The notes under the pieces: generated by a model
The model's input: the letters and a program-made list of their open reading frames with translations, nothing else
Database searches by the model: none
Told to the model about the DNA's origin: nothing
Shown here: piece after piece, positions 7,231 to 54,099 of the stretch
Position numbering within the stretch: the first letter of the stretch is position 1
Layout of the letters: the number at the start of each line of letters is the position of its first letter
Position numbers and translations under genes: made by a program
Origin: Polytrichum commune
Lineage: Eukaryota; Streptophyta; Polytrichopsida; Polytrichales; Polytrichaceae
DNA length: 64,000 nucleotides
Direction of reading: 5' to 3'
Assembly: GCA_950295325.1 (NCBI GenBank)
Contig: OX485808.1
Span: 38,091,180-38,155,179, forward strand

Positions 7231-8150
7231 CCACGACAGTTGATATGGGCCCAGCAAAGTACCAGTTTAAATACAATCCCATCACGAGAGGTTGCAGAGA
7301 TGGGCTATATAACCTTATTAAAAAGGCGGGGCAGAATTGTAGTGAAACTGCAAAATCAGGCTAAGTTTTATATTCATTCCCCCCCATCCCCCAGCATCAT
7401 CCACCGAGCCTTGCAATCGGTGAGGAGACCTCCTCGTACCCCACTGACACACACCGTTTTAGGGAAATATGGATCCCTCTTTGACGAAGCCGATGCTCAA
7501 CTGGAAGATGTGGGATCGTCACGAATCATTTCGACTGCACCAGAGGATCAGTGATCGGGGAGATTTTTGGGCATAGTCGGTTGAGATCCTAGTGTTTGCA
7601 AGTCCAGCCGGACACATGTTGACATCCTTCGGATTTTCTAGACGAATTTGAGGTATATTCCATAAATTCCTCTAAAGTGATCAGTAATTCTCCTGAAGTC
7701 TTGAACTTCAACCGCTTATTTCTCAAACTCAACTAGTTCATTTGTAACTAACTGCCGGTTCTCCCCGATCATAGCAGAGGATGCGCACGACGTGGATCTA
7801 TCACCGAAACTGCCGCCGCTCAATCGAGTTCGACACCTCTATCCTCTTGCAGTAACAAACCATCCCATGTTTTTGGTAACCGTCAACACCATTACAAATG
7901 GCCACCACATGCATTGCTTGATAGTCTTGATGAATAGAAACTGGGCTGCTGTAATCGACAGCTTTGCGACCCCCAAAGAGCGTTATGAGTCGTGTGTGGA
8001 ACTCTCCTGCAAGCACACAGAGCACCAAGATCTGATCCGGTGTGCTTCTGAGTTGCAGCGTTCACAGCGATATTAGCATTTGGGTGTTGGAAGTTCGACT
8101 TCAAGTACAACGGGAACCTGATCAGCAAGGTTAATTGTGAAGTGTTCACT
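7231..8150 (+). pseudogene. Unrecognised ORF interrupted by a MITE
   Basis: Frame 1 is open from 7231 to a TGA at 7552, which lies inside the inserted MITE, and again from within the MITE through to 8076. The target duplication makes the insertion 234 bp, a multiple of three, so both halves share one reading frame: before insertion the coding sequence would have run uninterrupted across the site. The first half carries GKYGSLFDEADAQLEDVG and the second HHMHCLIVLMNRNWAAVIDS. The latter loosely recalls the His-to-Asp stretch of Ulp1-type cysteine proteases, but I would not assign that function. After 8076 protein-like sequence continues in another frame (FDFKYNGNLISKVNCEVF), so a frameshift or intron is likely. 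The upstream end (stop at 7228) has no good ATG. Confidence 0.45.
7549..7774. mobile_element. hAT-type MITE with 8-bp target duplication
   Basis: The 226-bp insertion starts CAGTGATCGGGGAGA and ends with the inverse of CTATGATCGGGGAGA. It is flanked by direct copies of CAGAGGAT at 7541-7548 and 7775-7782. An 8-bp duplication with ends beginning CA fits the hAT superfamily. It has no coding capacity, so it must have been moved by a transposase elsewhere. A diverged relative lies at 4968-5322. The insertion sits inside an ORF. Confidence 0.85.
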
Positions 8151-11215: not shown

Positions 11216-12601
11216 CCATTACCTGATTCGTAGCACACATTTGAGTTTCAAGACTTATTCCATTCAAACATCTCAAAATATGCATATTGGAAATCTTGAG
11301 CTCTTGAAACTTTTACAGGATGGAGTTGGCGTTTGCTTCAATTAAGCAAGAAGTTTATTGTCGCTATGTGGCTATGACGTTAATTGAGGCCAATGCAATT
11401 AATTCCTTGAATTTGGACATTGTTATCATGACTAGTTTGGACGTGTGTCGTCCTAGCCTGTCACTCCCGTGCATATAAATTAATATTCGGGATGAACCCA
11501 ACCTCATATAGCCAACGCCCATGCAACTATATGCCCGTGTCCATATGTCTCCCATGTTCATGCATTCCAATCATATGCATGTATGCTCATGCCCATGCTC
11601 ATGCCCATGCTCATGAGCCTCCATGGAGCACTTTAAGAAGAAAAGAAGAAGAATATAATAATCAGTATAATAAACTAAAGTGTCGTACTTTGTCCTATGA
11701 CCAATGCCATGTCTCCACCTTGGCTCCATCCCTATCACCTCCCCCGGGTTTCCCCCACCATACTCACCTTTTGCACTTGTAGTCACATTTCCCTTCCTTT
11801 TTCTTCTTTTTTGGTATTGAAAATATGCAGTTGCAAGGAGATAACGATAAACAAACTGCCACAAGGGAAAAACCCCAACTAGGGGCCCACAGGGCATCAA
11901 GTGATAATTATACCCATCATGGGCCCAGACATCCAAGTAACCACTAAATTACTCCTACTAACAATAAGGCTTTTAATACACCAGACCTTATCAAAATATT
12001 TCAGAACATTATCACAAACCACAACCAAGGCTTCTTCAAGATTCTTGCGAGTTCTTTGCCACTAAATCTTACCATAATCAAGGAGAGTATCCCAGACAAT
12101 TTATTGGGTTTTCTCTAAAGGCCAGTGAAGATAATTGAAGATAATGTCGTTCCTTTGTTTCCAATTAATCTCGGGGGGTTTACTTCCATTTCATTCCAAC
12201 TGACGTCCAAAAAAATATAGGGTGCAACAAATTGTTTCAAAGTAAAAATTACAATTCATTTCAAAGTAATAGTGCATGTCTTATATTCTTGAAGACTGAT
12301 TTAAATAAATATAGGGTCTTATATATTGACTGATATTATTATTTTTTAAAAATTAATATTAGGGGTTCAAAAATTGTAAGGGACACGTGTAACGGTCCTA
12401 TTGGTTGGGTTGTTTGAAGACCTCGCTTCAGATGTGGATCTCGAAGGATTTGGGACGGATAGGGCTCGGGATAGGGTTTAGGAATCAGGAGGACAGTTAA
12501 TCTTCCATTGCATTATGCGAGAAAGTAAGGTTTAGGGTCCAAGAACCCAACAACATTGTATTTGATTTGTTTGCATCTAGTGTACTGAGAATGCAATCAG
12601 C
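11216..12601. other. Intergenic and upstream region of the transposase-like gene
   Basis: Contains a short 12-bp tandem repeat at about 11583-11614 (CATGCCCATGCT). Close to the downstream gene there are GGGTTTAG and AGGGTTTAGG-type sequences at 12472-12540, which are telo-box-like on the minus strand. I could not identify a terminal inverted repeat that would mark the start of a transposon here. Confidence 0.4.
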
Positions 12602-15600
12602 ATGGCTGGAGTTAAGCTAATCCTTTGGACTTTGTTTAGTGAGGATGCCAATTCTCAATGTCTCGGCTCTCTGGATTGTACAGAGAACGATTCTTATGCC
12701 GCTTTGAGAGTGTTGTTGGAGGAGGCCGAAATACTTGACGGCGATTTTGATTTCTGGGATCCTAGTTTAAAATGCCGCATTAGAAAGAAGCTGGAGCGGT
12801 TGAACAAGATTGGATCTGATGCTTTCATGATACCGGCGGTTGGAGAAGGAGACATTGGACCCACGGTTGGAGAAAAGAGGAGGAAGCGACCTAGATCTCC
12901 TGCTCACCTTTCGTCTGGCAATGGGGAAGAGATGGTTTCGGGTTTAAACCTGCCCTTTGACGATGACCCTCCACTGGTTAGTCTGTTTGATTCGGAAGTT
13001 GGTAGCACTTTACCAACCACTTCGACTGCCACTATTGAGGTGTTGTTAGATGATATGAAGTCGACCCTACTGTCAACCGAGGTCCTTGCGAAGTATTCAG
13101 CAGCTATAGATAAATTGAAGGTTGAAATGACGAGGACAACTATGGATGATCATATGTGGTGTTTGAAATCGTGGGATAAGGATGGGAAGGGGATAGTGAA
13201 GTTGTATTGTGGGGAGTGCAGCAAATTATACGGTAATTCGGTTGGAGACCATAGCAAAACGACCATTTCTAACCTGTTCGGAAACTTTAGCAAGAAGCAC
13301 CTGGTTTCAACTTCGCACATTAGAAATTGGTGCACACGAACAAAGATTGAATTCAGCTCACTTCCTCAATCAGAGTCCAAAGAGAAAGGGGTTGTTATGA
13401 TTCGGGCAGATCATGAGAAACTCGCAGACGAAGGCATTCACATTGTGGATCTGATCAATGACAGTGTCAATCAAGACCATAAACCTGTCGATCAAGACCA
13501 TAAACCTTTCGTAATTATTGGAGATCGGTCTTCGCCTCATATGCGTTGTTTTTGGCTGAAGGTAAAGTGCAAATTTTGCGGGGATTTTTTTCAGCTTTGT
13601 CCGCCTAGGAGGAATTTAGAAGCCAACCTTACCAATCACATAAAGGGTCCAAAACACGCAAGCGCAGTGGAAGCGGCACAGAACACTCGAGGCCGGTCTG
13701 CTGTCTTGCGAACAGGGAAGAAAGGCCGTCCAGCAACATCCAGTGTATGTCTGGAGAACCAAGGAAGCCTTCACTCTTGGTTCACTAGCCAAGGCTCTAA
13801 TAGCCAGTCAGGTCAGATTCACCGTCCTCTCTCACTTCTATGTTGGGGATACTGGAGATCTGTCTGTAGCTATGCTGGGAAAATGTATTTGGTCCAAAGG
13901 TTGTTGCTGGATTTACATCCTGGAGGTTCATGGATAGCCGAGCTAGAGACTAAAGGCAGGGTTGATTTGGGGGCAGGAGAGACCAAGATTATTGAAGGTT
14001 GCTTCAGACACAAGGGTTGTAGGAGGGTGTCAATGAGCGGTGCTCCGTTTGACGATTTGACATGTACATGTTGCGCACGGATTCCATAGGAAGTCGACTT
14101 TCGTCATCGAGTAATGCGTGAAGAACTAAGTCTGGAAAAGAGAGGCACCAGATCCAGTGCTGGGGGTAGGAGGCTAGGGTTTTTGCAAAGCCATGAATTG
14201 TCTCAGTATTCTAGGCATAGAGCATATGAGATTCGGCTTGCTAAACAGAAGCTATGTAGGATGAAGGCGTTGGTGTGTCAATTAAAAATCACAAGGCCAA
14301 CTTTAAGAGAGGCAGCTGCAGAGTGTGAAAATAGAAGGGATGTGTTAAAACTATGTAACAACATTATTCTAGCACATAAAACTAAAGCGTTTGGGGGAAA
14401 GGCAGCTCTTTGGGATTTCATTGTGGATGTTGGTAACAATCTAAATAAGAAGTCGGCCAAGGGAAACAGATTCAGCTCAAACACAACTGCATTTGCCCAG
14501 ACAGTGAAGTTATATGGGGGTAGACGCTTAACAGACTTGTTTTCATTAAACCTGGCAGGGCCTTCATTGTCTACAGTGAAGCTAGCAAACAAAAAAGGTG
14601 TGCAGTTTGTGGGTGGGTTTAGGCCAAAAATATTCTCAGCAGTGGCGTCAATATACAAAAATGCCATAGAAGCATATGGATTGGTAGGACCCATTCCAGT
14701 TCTCATGGCAGAAGACAAAACCAAAATCAAGACTAGGGTTTCCTGGGAGAGCCGATCTGACACGATGACTGGGTTTTGCGGAAGGGTGGATGACCACGTT
14801 TGTGAACCTGGATACAGTGTGGTAGTTGGTGACGACGAAGCTGGCTACAACAAGATCCTAGACAGTTTCCAAAACTGTAGGATGGGTACTTTTACAAGGG
14901 TAATTATGGTCAACCCATTACACACAAAGCTGCCCCGACTTGTGATAGCCATCTACTGTACTTGCAACTCCTTCAATTCAAGTTGGGTTCAAGAGCAGTG
15001 GGTCCACATGGAAAAATTGTGGGCTGCCGAGTGCAAGCAGGTTGTGGGTCCCATTATCGGGCACGCTTTAGACGGTGATAGTAGGCGTCGACAACTTATG
15101 TTGCAGGATTATCTCTGTGACGATGTAACAAAAAAAAGACGATCGATTCCGTGGGTGGGCTGGAAGCTATCTGTTCTCCTAAATGCAGATGGGAAGAGTA
15201 TGGGACTACACGATCAAGATTTTATTCACAATGGAAAGAAGCTCATAAATCCATTGGACAGTCCTGCTAAGACACTTCAACTGGGAATGGATGTTGCATG
15301 CATTCAACACATTGAAGGCATTTACAACAAGTTCAAGTTGGAAGAGCACGGACTAAAGCAAGAAGACATTGTTCGTAAAGACAGACAAAACTGGGGGAGC
15401 GCTCAGAGGATCTACCAACAGCGAGTTCAGAAGTGCCTTGAAGTTGTGCGAGGCAGGGGGATGCATCAAGAGCGCACTTTGGGCACGCAAACATATCTTC
15501 CCATTTGTAGCGATTACATTGATCTGTTTTTGTCCCCTATATTGGATTTACGTGGCAAGATTGTGGTGGCAACAAGGGTTTGTTTTTTCCTTAGGCTATG

Positions 15601-16048
15601 GCGATTGTGGATTAAACACGGTAGCCACGGTGTAGGTGGAAACTCAATGTCTTTAACATTAGTTGACTGCTTCGTGTCAAATCAATGTTTTATAGACATA
15701 ACTATGTCCTGTCACTTTATAGTTCTCTTAATTGTCATTTTTCATGACAATTATCGGCACCTGGCGATTCCGTTCCATCTTACAGGTTCAGATAGTTGCG
15801 AGATTTTTTTTAGCAAAGTGGGAGGCATGGCTGGTATGGAACGCGTATATGACTTTCAAGAGCTGATTCAATGTGCAAATGCCTTGAATCAAATGTCTGC
15901 AATCGAATATGGAAGCAATGGTCTAACTTTCAACCGAGTACATAACAAAATGTGCAACGTCTGGGACCAGCTACACCCGGTGCAGCCAGGGGAGACTATT
16001 GCTGACTTAAGCGACTACACATTAGTTGAAACAGATAGGTCCTCTTGA
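12602..16048 (+). pseudogene. P-element/THAP9-like DDE transposase gene, broken by one stop
   Basis: One reading frame runs from ATG 12602 to TGA 16046-16048, interrupted only by TAG at 14087-14089. Protein-like sequence continues in frame across the stop (VDFRHRVMREELSLEKRG). The first part, 495 residues, has an acidic/basic N-terminus, then two zinc-finger-like motifs: C203, C206, H233, H238, and C323, C326, H346, H352. The second part, 644 residues from 14114, carries three acidic motifs: LMAEDKTKI (D201), GHALDGDSRRR (D320) and HLTGSDSCEIFFSK (E563). Between the last two lies the helical FLRLWRLWI segment. This spacing and wording resemble the RNase H-like fold of P-element/THAP9 transposases, which cut and join DNA in the nucleus. 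Terminal inverted repeats were not found, so it may be a host-resident relic or a domesticated gene. The family assignment is by motif memory and is uncertain. Confidence 0.7.
14087..14089 (+). other. In-frame TAG splitting the transposase-like ORF
   Basis: This is the only stop in 3.4 kb of frame. Coding character is continuous on both sides. A single C-to-T change from CAG would explain it, as expected from deamination of a methylated CHG site, but that origin is inference. Readthrough or a sequencing error would also account for it. Confidence 0.8.
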
Positions 16049-16128
16049 TTTACAGTTGATTGTTCTACTTAAAGGTGCCTACTTGGCTGATACAGGGCTA
16101 GGCCATATTTTTAATAGTTACTAATCAG

Positions 16129-17166
16129 GTTTCTTGGCTGGGTGTAGACGACCTAGTTGTCGAAGCGTTAAAAGAGGGCTTTAAGCAAGCGCAGGGGTTG
16201 ATTAACGGGTGTAATATGGCCCCTTCGATTCAAGCAAAGAATCGCAAGTGGTTCACAGATCCTTGGTTGTTGGAATCAGAGGATAAGACATTCATGTCTT
16301 TTAAACCTGCTGCAAGGCCGGTTCAGGGAGAAGATGGAGATGGTGAGGTCATGCGTGAAGATGTCAGAGTTTCAGTTGAAGTACAACTTGAGCCCCCTCT
16401 AGGCGTCGAGGTGGATACCTCCCTGGTGTTCGATGACGGTAGCGATCCTACTGCAACGGTCGAAGACGAGGTCAGGGGTATTGTGAATGAGATGATCTCT
16501 TGTGCATCACAAGAGAATGTCATCGTTCAAAGCAATGTCCCTTTTAGTAGCACAGTGAAATTCAAAGATAATATTATCTTCAAATCAACTTTGGTTAGCC
16601 AGCTAAATGTCAATCCATTTTTTAGTAAGGATAGGCTAACTCGTGTGAAGTCATCACTCTATTTCAACAACTTTGAGTCTTATCTAGCTGCCGCAAGTAG
16701 TTCTTCAAGTTGTTTTGTGGGGGTAGGTTCAGATGTCGGAGTCTATTTTGTTCAAAGAATTTCCACGACTCAATCATCTGCTGTAAGGGCTGTTCAAAAA
16801 AGAAATAAACAGAAGGGGGGAAGAAAGGGTATAGCTGCACCAGTTACTGCAGCAGTGGATCAAGGGCTATGGTATCTAGGTAGAATCCAACGGCTGAAGG
16901 TGAAGAAAGGAAATATCTGGGGGAGACTTAACCAACCAGTAGACTTGATGAATAAGCCGTCCATAACGATTGCAGTGCACTTGAATTATTTTTCAAGAGC
17001 CCCAGGCCACTTAAAATTCAAGTATGACTTGACGGATAGTATATGGGTAGATTTAGAAACACTTATAAGTTCAGTTACTATGACCTACAATGAGCGACAA
17101 AATGTGTACACTCTTGATGCTAATGATGACGAGGCTCTTGCTGAATTTATTTCCAGTAAAAAATAA
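16129..17166 (+). pseudogene. C-terminal continuation of the transposase-like gene, shifted frame
   Basis: Frame 1 is open from 16102 to TAA at 17164-17166. Protein-like sequence starts at about 16129 (VSWLGVDDLVVEALKEG). It includes an acidic stretch near 16330-16480, a basic RNKQKGGRKG segment near 16800, and a globular-looking end (YLGRIQRLKVKKG, PGHLKFKYDLTDSIW). It follows the transposase-like domain directly and has similar composition, so it is probably the same protein. The switch from frame 2 to frame 1 between 16048 and 16129 could be an intron: the acceptor AATCAG ends at 16128 with a TACTAAT-like branch motif just before it. I found no strong donor that keeps the upstream frame to its end, so a frameshift is equally possible. 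Its function is unknown. Confidence 0.6.
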
Positions 17167-17399
17167 AAAACATTGTTTATTTCATTTCTTTTTGTTATTA
17201 GATATTACATTTTTTGTAATATACCATGGTATTTATTTGATGATTGGTGTTAAGTTAAAGAAATATACCATAGTGTATAATAGTCAATATTACATAATTA
17301 CATAATAATAGGGTGCCTATAAATCAACCAAAAAAGATTAATACCCCCATGTAAAATACACCATTATCTCAAGTGCCTATACCAAAATACACTAAGTGA
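17167..17399. other. 3' flank of the transposase-like gene
   Basis: AT-rich sequence with AAATAAAAAACA directly after the stop codon, a possible polyadenylation context. No terminal repeat was recognised. Confidence 0.4.
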
Positions 17400-18036
17400 A
17401 CCCCCCGAGCAATTAATCCAAGTTAAACCATTACAAAGAAAGAAGCAAATCTCATGATATTTCTTAAAGAAAATTCGGAAGAATTTCATCAAAAAGACAT
17501 TGAAGCATAGAGAAAGATAGCCGAGGCCCCATATTAGTCCAGTTAAAGTAGAGTTGCCACATGATATTAGCAACGTACCAAGGGAAGTCCAGTGAGGATT
17601 TCATTCTAAATTGCACTTCTTTCACTGGCCATATTAGACACATAGAGGTTGAGGATTCCAACATCTCCACCTTCCCTCCTTTGAGTCTAATCCATTGGAC
17701 CCTATTGCCAGCTAGAGTACCTTCATCAATGATGAGGCTCCGAAGTTTTGGGTGAAAGTATATGGCTACTCCACCTCTCCATGCACCAATTTTAATATCA
17801 TCCGTATCAATGCTAGGGGTTGCTTCAAGTGACCAAAAAGCATCCAATCTCCATAACATCTTTAACATTCTATCCCGAATATCTCCTCTAAGTTTGTGCT
17901 CTTTTAAGCAAAGGACATCAATTTTGGGACTAAGATGATTGAGGTAATCTGTAATTTCCCCACCCACCTTTCCACATGTGTTTTCTCGTTCTTTTGTCAC
18001 ATGTTTGTTTTGGGGAGGAACTTTGGCATGTGGCAT
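17400..18036 (-). pseudogene. LINE endonuclease (EEP) fragment
   Basis: Read on the minus strand from 18036: IDVLCLKEHKLRGDIRDRM is the Glu-containing motif of the apurinic-type endonuclease of L1-clade LINEs. It is followed by WRGGVAIYFHPKLRS and NRVQWIRLKG. After that the frame shifts by one base: the neighbouring frame gives GGDVGILNLYVSNMASERSA, as expected at this point in the domain, and then stops appear. The conserved N-terminal Asn motif and the GDFN and SDH regions are absent. The remaining 17400-17580 resembles untranslated 3' sequence. It is a dead, internally deleted copy, and belongs to a different subfamily from the LINE at 51-57 kb. Confidence 0.7.
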
Positions 18037-18138
18037 TTTTTCTTTTGAAATTTCTTCTTTTTTTACGCAAGAATGATGGTGAATAGTGGGGCAACGGCCT
18101 CACTACCACGTCTTCATTTGTATATAGATTTATATAAG

Positions 18139-22188: not shown

Positions 22189-25100
22189 TCACCAGTGCCC
22201 AATCAACTCCCCCATTTTCACATGCTGGCCTTTTTCAAGCATGAAGGAGAAACCCTGTTTACCCCCTTCAGACTCACCAACTGGTGCCTCAAATACCAGA
22301 ACCACAGTTGAGCCCAAGTTGAACAAAGCAACCTCATCGCCAGCATTCACATTGTAGCCTTCCCCATTACTTCCGTACTTTTGCATGGTGACAATACTTT
22401 GTAGCTCCTTTCCAAACAGGGGTAAGTTTGTTTTCAGTTCTGGTTCTAACTTAATTTCTATCGAGCCAACATTTGTGGCACCTACTGCAGCCATGGCCAT
22501 CAGACCTTGTGACCACTCTCCTTCTAGAACAACCCTCTCATTTACAACATACAGATTCTTCATTGTCCGAACTGCACGATCATTCACAGGACATAATTTC
22601 CCTGCAAAATGGCGACGCAAGCAGATCTTCCAATCACTCGGGGCATGAATCCGATGGTAGGCACCTGGTCCAAGATAGAGCACACAATAGAACAAACCCT
22701 TCACTGACTTCAACGGTTCTCCCAGGTTTCGAGTCAATTTCAATTTTTGAGAACCTGATTCTTTCGAGGTTGGAGATGCGATCGTGAGGGTTTGATCCTT
22801 TTCACTCTCAGTCACAATCTTTGTCCCTGAAAACAAAAGCTCCACATCAGATTATGACAGATGCATGACTTAAGTATTTACGAGACCCAACCAACTCCTG
22901 ACCAAAAGTCACGCTGAGTTAAGAGAATAACTCTATTATCTGTGCACTCTGCTTCACAAAATTAAGGGGCCGTAGAAAATCTAAGGATGCATCCATCCAT
23001 TTTACTTGATGAAGACCACAAAAAGTGACAATCTCATAGAGAGAGTACCTGAAAGTTGAGGAAGAGCTCCCAGCAGAGCTGATAATGAATATGAGAACCC
23101 CTTCACCTGCGTGAACATCAATCGTGAGCATCCAGAACCTCGTGCAAAACTAGGTTATGTTTACAATATGAATACAATTTCAGAGAGTAGATTTCACAAG
23201 CTTTCCCCAAACCACAAAAATTTACATCCACATGGTATACCATCATTCCTTCATAGTTACCTGCTCAATCATGGTGCCTGAGCCCTGGATTTGTCCACAG
23301 CGAATGACAATTGCGTCCACAGGACTTATAAGATTGGTGGGACCAATAGCAAGTGGCCTTGCACCCTCTTTCAACTCCCGTGTGAAAAAAGCTTGTAGGG
23401 ACGGATACTCCTCTATCGGTTTCGATGCTTCCTCCAGATTTGAATTAAATGCTCTTGCCCAGCCTTTATACACGTAGGGGCGCAACCACATTGGGAGTTC
23501 TACTGATGTAAGCTCGCCCCACCTTCTTGAAATAAATCTCAGAGGCAGAATCTGAAACAAAATAGAGCTGCTGAGGAATAGGGAAATTGTTCAAAAGGAA
23601 GCTACCAGGAACACCTGATGCATAACACAAACAAAGAGCACACCACATATAATGACATGTACTCAAATATCCCATGGTGATGCAATTTTTAACAGTGAAT
23701 TCCCATGTAATTTGCTATTCGCCATTCAGAATTTGGGTTAAAGAGTACAACTTAGACCTAGCAAGCTCCTACTAAGTCCAATGTCAGCATTACATTGATA
23801 AGAACACACAAACAACAATAGAGAATATGAACCTCCAAATGTAAGGATAATTCAGGCAGTCCATAGTATACCAGAGAATGTTATACCATATCACACATCA
23901 TCTCCTACTATGAAAGTGAGCAATGTCAGACTGAAGTGAAATCCAGACAACGCACAAGTGACTTTTGCAAAGAACAGTATAGACAAGGGTCAACTCACAG
24001 ATGCCAAGCTAAATCAGGTAGACGTTGATGCATAATCTGTAACACTTAATTCACTATTTCTTTCAGTATTCACCACTTAGAATTTCGGTTCACCAGTGGC
24101 ACATAGAGCTAGCAAGTTCCTGTTAAGTTCGTTGCAAGCATTACATCAATCAGAAGCAACGTTGAAGGACATGTAAAGATAATTCTGTATGTAAAGATAA
24201 TTCTGACAATCCTTAATCATCCATAGAAAGTTCTACCATATCACACATCACATCCTACCATAGGATTATGCACTGTCAGACTGAAGTATAACTCAAACAC
24301 CGCACAGAGAATCAGGATTTAAGTTTCACGCTACAAGGAGAAGCCATAAAACACCTGCAAATGCTGATGTTAACGCAATTTTTCAGGTTGACGTTCAAGA
24401 ATAGGGCATAGACCTAGCAAGCTCCTGTTATGTTCATTGCAAGCAATACATCAAAAAGAAGCGAGGTTGAAGGACATGAACTTCCAAATGTATAGATAAT
24501 TCAGGCTATCCGTAATCAACCATAGTGTTTTTCTACATCTACAATATGGCACATCACATCCTACCATAAAATTAAAATTCAAGGCTACAAAGAAAGCCAT
24601 CAAATCTTAGATGCCATGCTAAATCAGGTTGATGCTAATGTCATCTTTGCCAATGAATTCCCTTCTTCATTGCCACCATTAAATTATAAAGAAATGACGC
24701 CGAAGGACATGAACTTTCGAATGTGAGGATTATTCAGGCAATACATGATTATCCATAGAATGTTCTACCATATGAGGCAGCACATCCTACCATGAAAGTA
24801 TGCAATACCAGGATGTAGTATAATTCAGAAAACGAACAGAGAAATTAGGGTTTTAAGTACAAAGGAGAAGCCATTAAGCACCTGCAAGAAAGTAGCCTTC
24901 CAGTCTGCTTCAAACTGGAGCTCTTGACCCTCAAGTCTCTGCTTCTCAAGCTTATTGTCCTCATACATGCGCCGAGCATGGAGCGCCCCGAGCATGAGCA
25001 ACGTGGCCACCGTAGCTCCAGGCACCATTCTAAGCACTGCTGATCCATTCGATGATCCACTTCCTCCTCCATAGCTGCTGCCATCCGATGACCCTAATGA

Positions 25101-25214
25101 GGCCCCATGCGATTGTCCAGAGAAATTCCTCGCCGCAGGTCTCCTCCGAGCTGCCGAATTTCGCCTTCCTAAAACCCCAATCACTCTGTACACCCTCCAC
25201 GGAATGGACCCCAT
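22189..25214 (-). CDS. PSD1: Phosphatidylserine decarboxylase, mitochondrial type
   Basis: Converts phosphatidylserine to phosphatidylethanolamine, normally at the mitochondrial inner membrane. Four minus-strand exons join cleanly with GT-AG introns: 25214-24882, 23551-23261, 23106-23049 and 22826-22189. They encode 439 residues, close to the plant family length. The N-terminus is Arg-rich, as in a mitochondrial presequence, followed by a hydrophobic segment at about residues 64-80. The catalytic set is present: Asp190 in LISPVDA, the YHRIHAP motif at 284-290, and LGST at 398-401. Self-cleavage at LGST gives a large beta chain and a short alpha chain with a pyruvoyl group made from Ser400. 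The usual Gly after the Asp (SPxDG) is Ala here, a mild oddity. The long first intron (23552-24881) holds diverged tandem repeats. ATG 25214 is the first in frame with the presequence. Confidence in family is very high; the exon joins are inferred from sequence. Confidence 0.95.
23690..24800. repeat. Diverged tandem repeat inside intron 1 of the decarboxylase gene
   Basis: Three to four imperfect copies of a 300-350-bp unit. The marker CTAGCAAG(C/T)TCCTG recurs near 23755, 24109 and 24412. A second marker, TACCATAT(C/G) followed by CACATC, recurs near 23884, 24236, 24543 and 24769. The last copy lacks the first marker, so it is partly deleted. These repeats make up most of the intron. Confidence 0.8.
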
Positions 25215-25417
25215 AGCAAAGATTCAAGAAAGGTTTTTGGAAAAATCTATATGGAGCGCCACCGAACCAACATTTTCACATCAGCATAAGTTGAATTACT
25301 GGTAGTTGCGAACAATATTGCTTTTGGAACTCGAAGAATCTAAATCGCTGTGCTGGATTTGAATTCAAGGTCGGTGCATTGCACCTTCCTTCGAAGGACC
25401 ACCAGGATTTTAGGGTC

Positions 25418-42051: not shown

Positions 42052-42164
42052 GATATCACATCCAACCTCACTTCATTCAAGCACACATAAACCATTTTAA
42101 AGACATAAAAATATCCTCTAAACACATTACGTTTTAAGCAATCACAACAAAAATCAATTTTCTC

Positions 42165-43275
42165 ACTAAGGATGAAGCATATGCCTCACCTTTAAGCACC
42201 AACTTAAGGAGAAATTCAAATTTCTCAAGGACGGTGAGGCATGTGCCCCACCCGAAAAAAACAAATTCACAACATATAATTTTGTTTCATAAGGGTGAGG
42301 CATGAGCCTCACCTCTAAGCACAAGCTTAAGAAGAAATTCAGATTTTTCAAAGAGGATGAGGCATGTGTCTCACCTTCAAAAATTAGAATTTTGTTTCAT
42401 AATGATGAGGCATATGCCTCACCTCTAAGCATAACCTTAGGGAGAAATTCAGATTTCTCAAGGAGAGTGAGGCATGTGATCCACCCGAAAAAAACAAATT
42501 CAAAACATAGAATTTTGTTTCATAAGGGTGAGGCATGTGTCTTACCTCTAAGCACAAGCTTAAGAAAAAATTCATATTTTTCAAAGAGGGTGAGGTATGT
42601 GTCTCACCCGGAAAAAACAAATTCAAAACATAGAATTTTATTTCATAAGGGTGAGGTATGTGTCTCACCTCTAAGCACAATCTTAAGGAGAAATTCAGAT
42701 TTTTCAAGGAGGTGAGGCATGTGCCTCACCTCTAAGCACAAGCTTAAGGAGGAATTCCGATTTTTCAAGGAGGGTGAGGCATGTGACTCACCTTCAAAAA
42801 TTAGAATTTTGTTTCATAATGATGAGATATTTGCCTCAACTCTAAGCATAATCTTAGGGAGAAATTCAGATTTCTCAAGAAGAGTGAGGCATGTGCCCCA
42901 CCCGAAAAAACAAAATTCAAAACATAGAATTTTGTTTCATAAGGATGAGGCATGTGCCTCGCCCAAAAAAAACAAATTCAAAATATAGAATTTTGTTTCA
43001 TAAGGGTATGGCATGTGCCTTACCTCTAAGCACAAGCTTAAGGAGAAATTCAGATTTTTCAAGCAAGGTAAGGTATGTGTGTCCCACCCCAAAAACACAA
43101 ATTCAAAATTTAGAATTTTGTTTCATAAGGGTAAGCCATGTGAGTCACCTCTAAGCACAAGCTTAAGAAGAAATTCAAATTTGTCAAGGAGGGTGAAGGA
43201 TGTGTCTCACCCAAAAATAAATATTCAAAAAACTTAGAATTTTGTTTCATAAGAATGAGGCATGTGCCTCATCCC
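42165..43275. repeat. Minisatellite of a palindromic core every ~60 bp with two alternating spacers
   Basis: About 19 copies of an imperfect palindrome, GTGAGGCAT(A/G)TGCCTCAC, occur at roughly 60-bp steps (for example near 42176, 42235, 42293, 42354, 42405, 42466, 42527, 42588, 42650, 42711, 42772 and on to 43254). They are separated mostly alternately by spacer A (CTAAGCACAAGCTTAAG, then GAAATTCAGATTTTTCAAGG) and spacer B (CGAAAAAAACAAATTC, then ATAGAATTTTGTTTCATAAG). The higher-order unit is thus about 122 bp. Because the period is near a multiple of three, long repetitive frames stay open on both strands; I treat these as by-products rather than genes. Confidence 0.9.
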
Positions 43276-44256
43276 CAAAAAAACAAATTCAAAACATTTG
43301 CCTCAATTTGAAAGGAAGAGAAGTGATACAATATTTTGTAATCAAGAATGAAGAAAATAAAATTCAGCAATACGGATGAGTAATACCGATTTTGAAGGGT
43401 TATATAAGGGTAAACATTATATATTCTAGAGTTTGAAAAATGAGGATGAGGCATTTATTACGAAAATTTCATAGTATGAACTACATGTACTAAGTATACT
43501 GTAATATTTTGTAATAATTAATAAATTATGTTGTTTTGAAAAACAAAATCAGATTTAGATCTGAATCCCAAAAAATTGAAGAGTTAAACAATTACATGAA
43601 TGGAGTGTTGAATTGAAGTACATTCTAAATAAAGTTGAAAATAAGCGTAAAATATATAAAATATGATGGTATTTGAATATTGAATAAGAGTTGGTGTTGA
43701 AGCGGCTATATAAGTTGAAAGTAGAGTCGAAGATCAGTTGAGCTGCAAATGAAGACATTAGAGTTATTGGAGAGTGGATTGAACGTAATAAGATGATAGA
43801 GAGCTGAAGGATTAAAATTTGCAGCAATAGGTTAGACAGTGTAGTACTAGAAAAACTTTTGAACTTTTGAAGAATAATAATTAGAAGAAGGAATGAAGAG
43901 GTACCATCGGAGAGAAACAAGAAGGTGTTGGAGTAAGAGGCGCCGAAGTAGATCCGTGTTGGAGAAGAGCGGCGTTGGAAAAGAGCGGTGGCTAAAAAAC
44001 TTGACCTAACCCTAAGTGGCGTTTTAGGGTTTAGGGTAAACGTTTATTTTTTAATTTGATATGTGTGGACAAATTTTGTATTGGTCTATCATCCACAGAT
44101 TTAAGAAGTTACACTTGAATTTTTTTAGGTGGGCCGGTGGCATTATTCTACTCATACCTACTCATTATTTAGTTTTTTGGAGATAAAATAGAATTTCCAT
44201 AAATATTTAATCTATTATTTAAAATATAACTTTAAAATATAAAAATAATATTTAAA
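43276..44256. other. Intergenic between the two palindrome arrays
   Basis: AT-rich. 43880-44040 is less AT-rich and, on the minus strand, has telo-box repeats (44025-44040) followed by a CT-rich leader-like stretch, as in plant 5' regions. A 121-codon minus-strand frame (43555-43920) is low-complexity and not convincing. Confidence 0.35.
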
Positions 44257-44480
44257 GGGGTGAGGCATATGCCACACCTTGTGGAGCCGTAATTAGTTTT
44301 TATTCAAGTTTTAAGGGGGTGGGGCATATGCCTCACCTTGTCAAGCAGTAATTAGTTTTTGTTCAAGTTTTAAGGGGGTGGGGCATATGCCTCACCTTGT
44401 GAAGCCGTAATTGGTTTTCTCAAGATTTATAGGGGTGAGGCATATGCCACACCTTGTGGAGCCGTAATTGGTTTTTATTT
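44257..44480. repeat. Second palindrome array, four units of ~59 bp
   Basis: Units carry GTG(A/G)GGCATATGCC(T/A)CACC and the spacer TTGTG(G/A)AGCCGTAATT(A/G)G, then TTCAAGTTTTAAGGGG. Core positions are 44266, 44325, 44384 and 44441. The palindrome is the same as in the 42165-43275 array, whereas the spacer is unrelated. Confidence 0.92.
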
Positions 44481-53066: not shown

Positions 53067-53819
53067 TACCGGCGAATGGCCTGAGCCTACCGGGTATCCA
53101 CGGATAAAGTAGGAAGTTTGATGTACGTCCAATTTACTATGGGCTGGGGTGTAAAACCTATCTAGCCTAGCTAGTCTTTGTGCTTGGCCCTTGTGCCCCT
53201 TGTGCTAGGAGAATCGGGGTCCACCATGGTGTGTGAAAGTGTCGCTCACTTGGAAAGCATTCAATAATTCATTCCATGTAAATCATTCCAAGTCACTAAT
53301 GGCTTGCCCACACTTATTGGACTTATCTTGGGGTCTTTCCGTCATGTTAAAGTCCCCCCAAAAAATCCATTCATAATCCTTAGGTAGTGCATCTACCATA
53401 ATGTGCCATAAATGCCTTCTCTCTGTGGGTATGTTAGGGGCATATATGCACGCCAAGCCTATATTACCCCCTACAATACCTTCTAACTTAATCCACACTA
53501 TCATGTCTTTGTATAGAGCCCCATGATTTATAACAAGCCTTGCATACTTATGTGCAAGTAGAATTCCCACTCCCCTTTTTACTGCTGCATTTGGGCTAAT
53601 CCAACTTCTTTCTCTAGGAGCGGGTTCCATTATCCAACTTGCACATCCGGGTATCAATCTACTCCCTAGATTTATCATAGCCCTACCCCTTAATTTATGT
53701 TCTTGGATCATTATGATGTCCGCCCTTGGTGTTAATGAGTTAATAAAACACCTTTCTTTTGTGATGCTTTCTGGGTCATTTAGACCTCGGATATTATGAG
53801 TAATAATATTCCACTTCAT
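53067..53819 (-). pseudogene. LINE ORF2 endonuclease domain
   Basis: Starts with ATG at 53819 (MKWNIITHNIRGLNDPESI). Motifs follow the order of the EEP endonuclease that nicks target DNA for LINE integration: HNIRGLN, IMIQEHKLRG (Glu), ACIYAPN, WIFWGDFNMTE (Asp/Asn), and ARLDRFY and GSGHSPV near the end. In the last motif the usual SDH is SGH. The frame is closed at 53283-53285 by TGA, and another stop occurs near the PRFS motif; both are single-base changes from Trp codons. Coding character resumes in the same frame after each. Confidence 0.8.
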
Positions 53820-54099
53820 AGCAAGTCAAGTAATGAGTGCCTCATACCATTGTTTACCTAACCCCCAAGTGGGGATTTATTCATGTGTTCCCATACTCTC
53901 CCTTGTCTAGGGGTTAAAACATGCTTTCCCAGGGCTAATAAACTAGTAGCACTACTATAGATGGGGATATTAACCAACGGTAATGCATGTCCATGTTCAT
54001 TTGTTGGCATGCCCTCCCCTCCCCATGTCTCCCTAGACGGGGTGGGGCTATCAAGTCTTATGCTTGCTAGTATGGCATTCATATGTTACCTTTATCACT

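Follow-up and report, generated by a model that had tools for sequence, protein, structure and literature searches.

The P element, a textbook case in genetics, is known mainly from animals. Among plant hAT elements, Ac/Ds makes an 8-bp duplication of its target site. The fly P element (6p5a/6pe2) combines such a duplication with terminal and subterminal inverted repeats and a D-D-E transposase carrying a D-x-x-H motif, and the zebrafish Pdre2/THAP9 element has, according to the accessible part of its description, a short terminal inverted repeat (TIR) of 13 bp, subterminal inverted repeats, an 8-bp duplication and internally deleted copies in the genome (PMC10983969). Distant P-family homologues are recorded from an amoebozoan and a chromalveolate in the available text of another study (PMC3985635), and on that partial account the P superfamily is not confined to animals. 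Further marks of the superfamily are an insertion between beta5 and alpha4 of the RNase H fold, which binds GTP in the fly, as well as GTP dependence and a cleavage staggered by 17 nt. For land plants, the accessible sections of a 2022 review give the TIR superfamilies as Tc1-Mariner, hAT, Sola, MuDR, PIF-Harbinger and CACTA and do not list P (PMC9033089), and THAP domains are stated, in the portion available of a further paper, not to be found in plants (PMC7776569). No land-plant P element was found in the literature, most subscription papers lying outside the scope of that survey, and Repbase or Dfam may already name the family described below.

The locus in question lies in a stretch of 64,000 nt from Polytrichum commune (GCA_950295325.1, OX485808.1, 38,091,180-38,155,179, forward strand), the whole of which is here called the window. 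It holds what is likely a young, slightly broken DNA transposon of the cut-and-paste kind, encoding a DDE transposase similar to that of the P element; that it is a cut-and-paste transposon is practically certain, and kinship of its transposase with the P superfamily is likely. The observations that carry this reading are fixed ends, 16-bp TIRs, 8-bp duplications, a shared subterminal motif, short copies and intact relatives. The duplication, the two kinds of inverted repeat and the D-D-E and D-x-x-H residues of the fly element recur here, and in a low-confidence model a helical insertion before the catalytic Glu also appears to superpose on the GTP-binding insertion of P; the locus differs in its TIR (16 bp against 31), in the absence of a detectable THAP domain, in a longer spacing between the first and second Asp, in intact relatives whose frames reach about 1,500 codons and end in a 350-residue tail, and in a sequence similarity that is not significant. 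The traits listed for the zebrafish element are shared as well, whereas that element has an animal host, a THAP domain and a different TIR sequence. Short TIRs and the 8-bp duplication are also common to plant hAT elements of the Ac/Ds type (for hAT, the accessible text of PMC3706591), from which the locus is set apart by the lack of any hAT domain found and by a weaker structural match to Hermes.

Ends and gene structure of the window transposon

A sequence-only reading of the window had described coding sequence over 12602-17166 with three quoted motifs, and both long plus-strand frames and the motifs are indeed there. The same reading saw no terminal repeats; this does not hold, as a repeat scan detected a TIR pair with a perfect 8-bp direct repeat just outside it. 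The features of the element are as follows (L numbers denote relatives elsewhere in the genome).

12162-12169, no strand: left target-site duplication CAATTAAT, exact match to 17410-17417
12170-17409, plus strand: whole transposon, 5,240 bp; homology to other copies begins and ends at these bases, within one base
12170-12185, plus strand: 5' TIR CTCGGGGGGTTTACTT, 15/16 complementary to 17394-17409
12215-12316, plus strand: two subterminal motifs ATATAGGG (12215, 12309), putative transposase-binding sites
12602-14086, plus strand: N-terminal part of the transposase from its ATG, aligning with the beginning of L009, an intact relative
about 13208-13333, plus strand: Cys/His motif within the N-terminal part
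14087-14089, plus strand: in-frame TAG, absent from L005, L006 and L007
14090-16024, plus strand: catalytic part of the transposase, with residues invariant in 16 sequences
14714-14716 (D), 15071-15073 (D), 15218-15229 (D-x-x-H) and 15800-15802 (E), plus strand: catalytic codons, invariant in the 16 sequences
15281-15787, plus strand: helical insertion between the second D and the E that, in a low-confidence model, appears to correspond to the GTP-binding insertion of the P transposase
16025-16128, plus strand: probable intron of 104 nt, GT...AG, both kept in other copies
16129-17166, plus strand: C-terminal tail of the transposase, 43% identical to L009 over 355 columns
17313-17381, minus strand: two subterminal motifs TATAGGCAC (17313-17321, 17373-17381), in the opposite orientation to the 5' pair
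17394-17409, minus strand: 3' TIR, 15/16 complementary to 12170-12185
17410-17417, no strand: right target-site duplication CAATTAAT, exact match to 12162-12169

The homology of L005, L006, L007 and L008 to the window begins at 12170 (12169 for L006, on account of one base matching by chance), and that of L005, L006 and L008 ends at 17409 or 17410, the 3' end of L007 having been read separately. The TIR sequence is CTCGGGGGGTTYACT. When flank pairs were resampled from a first-order Markov model, none of 300 had one mismatch or fewer beside an 8-bp duplication, the best having three mismatches. Inside the TIRs, the motif KATAGG faces inward ten times and outward twice across five 400-bp ends (both ends of the window copy, both of L009 and the 3' end of L011), with inward copies in all five; shuffling gave a mean of 1.29 and reached ten in 0 of 1,000 trials, a figure that overstates the significance since the motif was picked after the ends had been inspected. 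TATAGG is also frequent in the window at large (22 + 16).

The open reading frames (ORFs) run on the plus strand from 12581 to 14089 (ORF1, 502 codons, ATG at 12602), 14090 to 16048 (ORF2, 652 codons) and 16102 to 17166 (ORF3, 354 codons). Together they align full-length with L009, at 48% identity over 1,163 columns and then at the 43% of the tail, and relatives in the genome read through the whole length as a single frame of about 1,500 codons; hence, the three frames are one transposase gene and not a product of chance. ORF1 and ORF2 are the same frame split by the single TAG, which is missing in 3/3 copies checked (L005, L006 and, by its stop list, L007; L008 was left out). The possibility that this TAG belongs to an intron was rejected, as the relatives align without gaps on both sides and three copies lack the stop. 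ORF3 begins 53 bases past the end of ORF2 in a different frame, and the break is probably the 104-nt intron, whose GT and AG are retained in 3/3 copies checked; its predicted splice joins SDYTL to VSWLGVDD, where the counterpart in L009 reads SDYTALGSDED. Another intron candidate, at 15577-15787, was discarded because relatives read through the region as protein. As predicted from these frames, the window copy is without a full-length transposase unless the stop is read through, owing to one nonsense change, and both its ends are complete.

Relatives, short passenger copies and recent movement

The search for other copies that the sequence-only reading had proposed covered 407.8 Mb in 64 sequences (seven of those seen measure 42-78 Mb) and returned at least 71 protein matches to the transposase. 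The nearest of these, L005, L006, L007 and L008, form with the window copy a group at 89-97% amino acid identity, and perfect 8-bp duplications, all different, flank 5/5 of its members, those of the four relatives being CTCATCAC, TGCCAACT, GGTCTCTC and AGTGTTTC. A sister group stands mostly at 54-57% identity and includes pairs that are 98.7-99.96% identical in DNA. To this group belong the nine of the at least 71 matches that have stop-free frames of about 1,500 codons (L009, L011, L012, L013, L014, L017, L019, L025 and L029). The element L009 measures 6,351 bp, bears the TIRs CCCGGGGGGTTCACTG and CTCGGGGGGGTCAGTC and is flanked by the duplication AAAGAAAC; its 99.5% twin L015 carries a stop and has the duplication CTCTTCTA. 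The duplications are perfect in 2/2 sister copies with both ends reached, L011, L012, L014 and L017 falling outside this count as their 5' ends were not reached. L011 and L012 lie 21.7 kb apart on C5; they are 99.9% identical along 8 kb and differ in their 3' flanks, a pattern that a local hop might explain. On the 5' side both extend further than L009 does.

Further groups lie at about 42-44% and about 30% identity. In the latter, L056 (413-1654 and 2294-5860) and L057 are transposase-like genes preceded by another kind of frame, rich in cysteine. These near-twins, on two chromosomes and 99.1% identical over 4.2 kb, both retain the two Asp, the DxxH and the Glu, with Arg replacing Gly after the second Asp in L057; their element ends were looked for and not found. 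Beyond the genome, a peptide pattern gave one unconfirmed stretch in viral contigs, one DNA pattern gave none and another three stretches with a best protein similarity of E 0.94, and plasmid records gave no match. Unannotated moss proteins of similar look presumably exist.

The family also includes many short copies. The TIR pattern, allowing one mismatch, occurs 362 + 359 times in the genome (a count that includes the ends of long elements), as against 7 + 8 for the reversed-pattern control (721 vs 15). Among the matches listed, at least 25 pairs on C1 face each other at a distance of 244-329 bp, and 20 of 25 such pairs were fetched. All 20 have 15 exact TIR bases, 18 have perfect 8-bp duplications and two have one mismatch, and the median pairwise identity is 0.947. 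A further short copy, of 286 bp with the duplication CCAACAAG, adjoins L056. The shared ends suggest which transposase moves these copies.

Seven stops were compared in the near group, of which five are TAG (that at 14087 in the window and one each in L005, L006, L007 and L008). Set against other copies, each of the five is a C-to-T change at a CHG site; these few events would fit cytosine methylation damage in a silenced element. The two remaining stops, in ORF1 of L005 and L006, are of other kinds. The ratio of nonsynonymous to synonymous divergence (dN/dS) in the ORF2 part is 0.48, 0.60 and 0.87 for three young pairs, and in the ORF1 part the window and L006 give 1.5 on 19 changes (dN 0.0149, dS 0.0098), L005 being excluded there because its ORF1 part does not keep register with that of the window copy (identity 0.58 without gaps). 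Among ten near-identical sister pairs the ratio is 0.15-0.68, apart from L009/L015, where it is about 3 (one silent change against 11 others), and the older split between the window and L007 gives 0.145 (dS 0.367, dN 0.053). Such a pattern is expected of transposons selected only while moving, with counts for the young pairs being small. Recent activity, which had been left as one of two options alongside domestication, is supported by the intact duplications, the relatives up to 99.96% identical and the short passenger copies.

Affinities of the transposase

The D-D-E triad postulated from the motifs is borne out: D209, D328, D377/H380 and E571 do not vary among the window copy and 15 relatives, nor among 20 sequences including more distant ones, with the D-x-x-H lying after the second Asp and corresponding to the [C/D]xxH motif as defined in PMC8230255. 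In the low-confidence model, D209 and D328 each follow just after a strand (204-207 and 322-326), and E571 lies in a helix past the helical insert. These features support a transposase of the D-D-E type. The distance from the second D to the E is 243 residues, compared with 228 in fly P and 239 in human THAP9, by residue numbers in the accessible parts of PMC7776569 and PMC8230255.

The more specific claim of a P-element/THAP9-like enzyme is favored in its structural part, where P was the best match in the second comparison, is not supported as regards THAP, and falls short of significance as regards sequence homology. In the second structural comparison, which used the insertion domain of the low-confidence model, two P-element entries rank 1 and 2 of 995 chains and lead the following entry by 2 Z units. 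The alignment stops at residue 566 of the model and 526 of P, an offset of 40 that equals that between E571 and E531, both of which lie five residues beyond. Further, an unconstrained hhalign run placed P D230 on D209. An earlier single-sequence fold (predicted local distance difference test score 35.8) had been discarded.

Several comparisons gave no significant link to P. The hhalign comparison of the transposase with a single P sequence was not significant (E 0.14-0.17), and when the family's own profile was set against four P segments only D230 fell in register and none scored above shuffles. Foldseek on the second model gave 440 matches at E <= 10, none of them at E <= 0.001, and P is absent among the best 50 of the 440 matches listed. 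No Pfam family exceeded the cut-off in 16 + 5 proteins, and a sequence search of the PDB gave no meaningful match, the best being unrelated chains at E 0.85 and 1.6. The Pfam silence and the non-significant sequence comparison would suit a separate undescribed DDE superfamily, no closer to P, hAT, Kolobok and MuDR than all DxxH transposases are to one another; the DxxH feature is common to hAT, Kolobok and MuDR. However, the standing of the two P entries over the insertion domain speaks against this, as do the 8-bp duplication and the short TIR with subterminal repeats, which resemble fly and zebrafish P as described in the accessible text of PMC7776569 and PMC10983969, and we regard a separate superfamily as unlikely.

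A hAT-type transposon would likewise make 8-bp duplications. However, none of L009, L014, L029 and the two frames of L056 matched the hAT C-terminal dimerization domain, no other hAT family appeared in the Pfam scans, and the structural score of Hermes is well below that of P, so that a hAT assignment is highly improbable. As for a domesticated host gene, its long open frame is offset by intact TIRs and duplication, five dispersed copies, the in-frame stop and weak constraint between young copies; the target-site duplication and the stop codon refute it at the window locus, and we give it almost no weight. The P-related cut-and-paste transposon thus remains the preferred reading.

Of two zinc fingers proposed upstream, the first keeps its C-x2-C...H...H...C pattern in L009, whereas the C-x2-C of the second is not kept, and Pfam recognizes neither. 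No THAP domain was matched by Pfam in the window N-terminal part or in five further frames of relatives. The N-terminal Cys/His region may instead bind the subterminal motif, upon which an RNase-H-like core with the helical P-type insertion before the catalytic Glu would cut both ends by DDE chemistry, at CTCGG, and join them to the target at points separated by eight bases. Relatives with an intact gene could move the short elements in trans, and the window copy could be moved likewise. On balance, it is plausible that land plants hold a P-related lineage of their own, in which a different Cys/His region took the place of THAP and the C-terminus gained a long tail. In this genome, where it comprises intact copies, sub-lineages at as little as 30% identity and short elements in the hundreds, the lineage would still be moving or have stopped only very recently. 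If true, a plant family that is young, multi-copy and equipped with intact transposase genes would carry the P group across kingdoms, show a possible replacement of the THAP domain, open P-type transposition to study outside animals and offer a candidate transposition tool. Pfam-based annotation has left this large transposon family nameless.

Genomic setting of the insertion

Taking the transposon and one of its two flanking duplications out of the sequence yields an 83-codon open frame spanning the junction, which by eye looks like the C-terminus of a long interspersed nuclear element (LINE). The insertion site seems to lie beside or within a LINE-type retrotransposon remnant at 17464-18099 on the minus strand, itself read by eye and without a Pfam match. 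A second remnant of this type at 53283-53825 (minus strand) has an Exo_endo_phos match (E 2.3e-5). About 5 kb from the transposon end lies a phosphatidylserine decarboxylase exon (22189-22851, minus strand; PF02666, E 7.7e-39), and 24825-25223 (minus strand) is maybe the first exon of that gene, as judged by eye. ARAGORN reports a tRNA-Cys with anticodon aca at 7686-7782 (minus strand), perhaps false or degenerate. A short CCTAAAC repeat and the appearance of the genes fit the plant-type genome proposed in the sequence-only reading. A 283-bp unit stands in three tandem copies at 1515-2361 (93% matches), and tandem arrays of a palindromic GTGAGGCATGTGCCTCACC-like unit occupy 42112-43293 and 44247-44479 (about 61 and 59 bp per unit).
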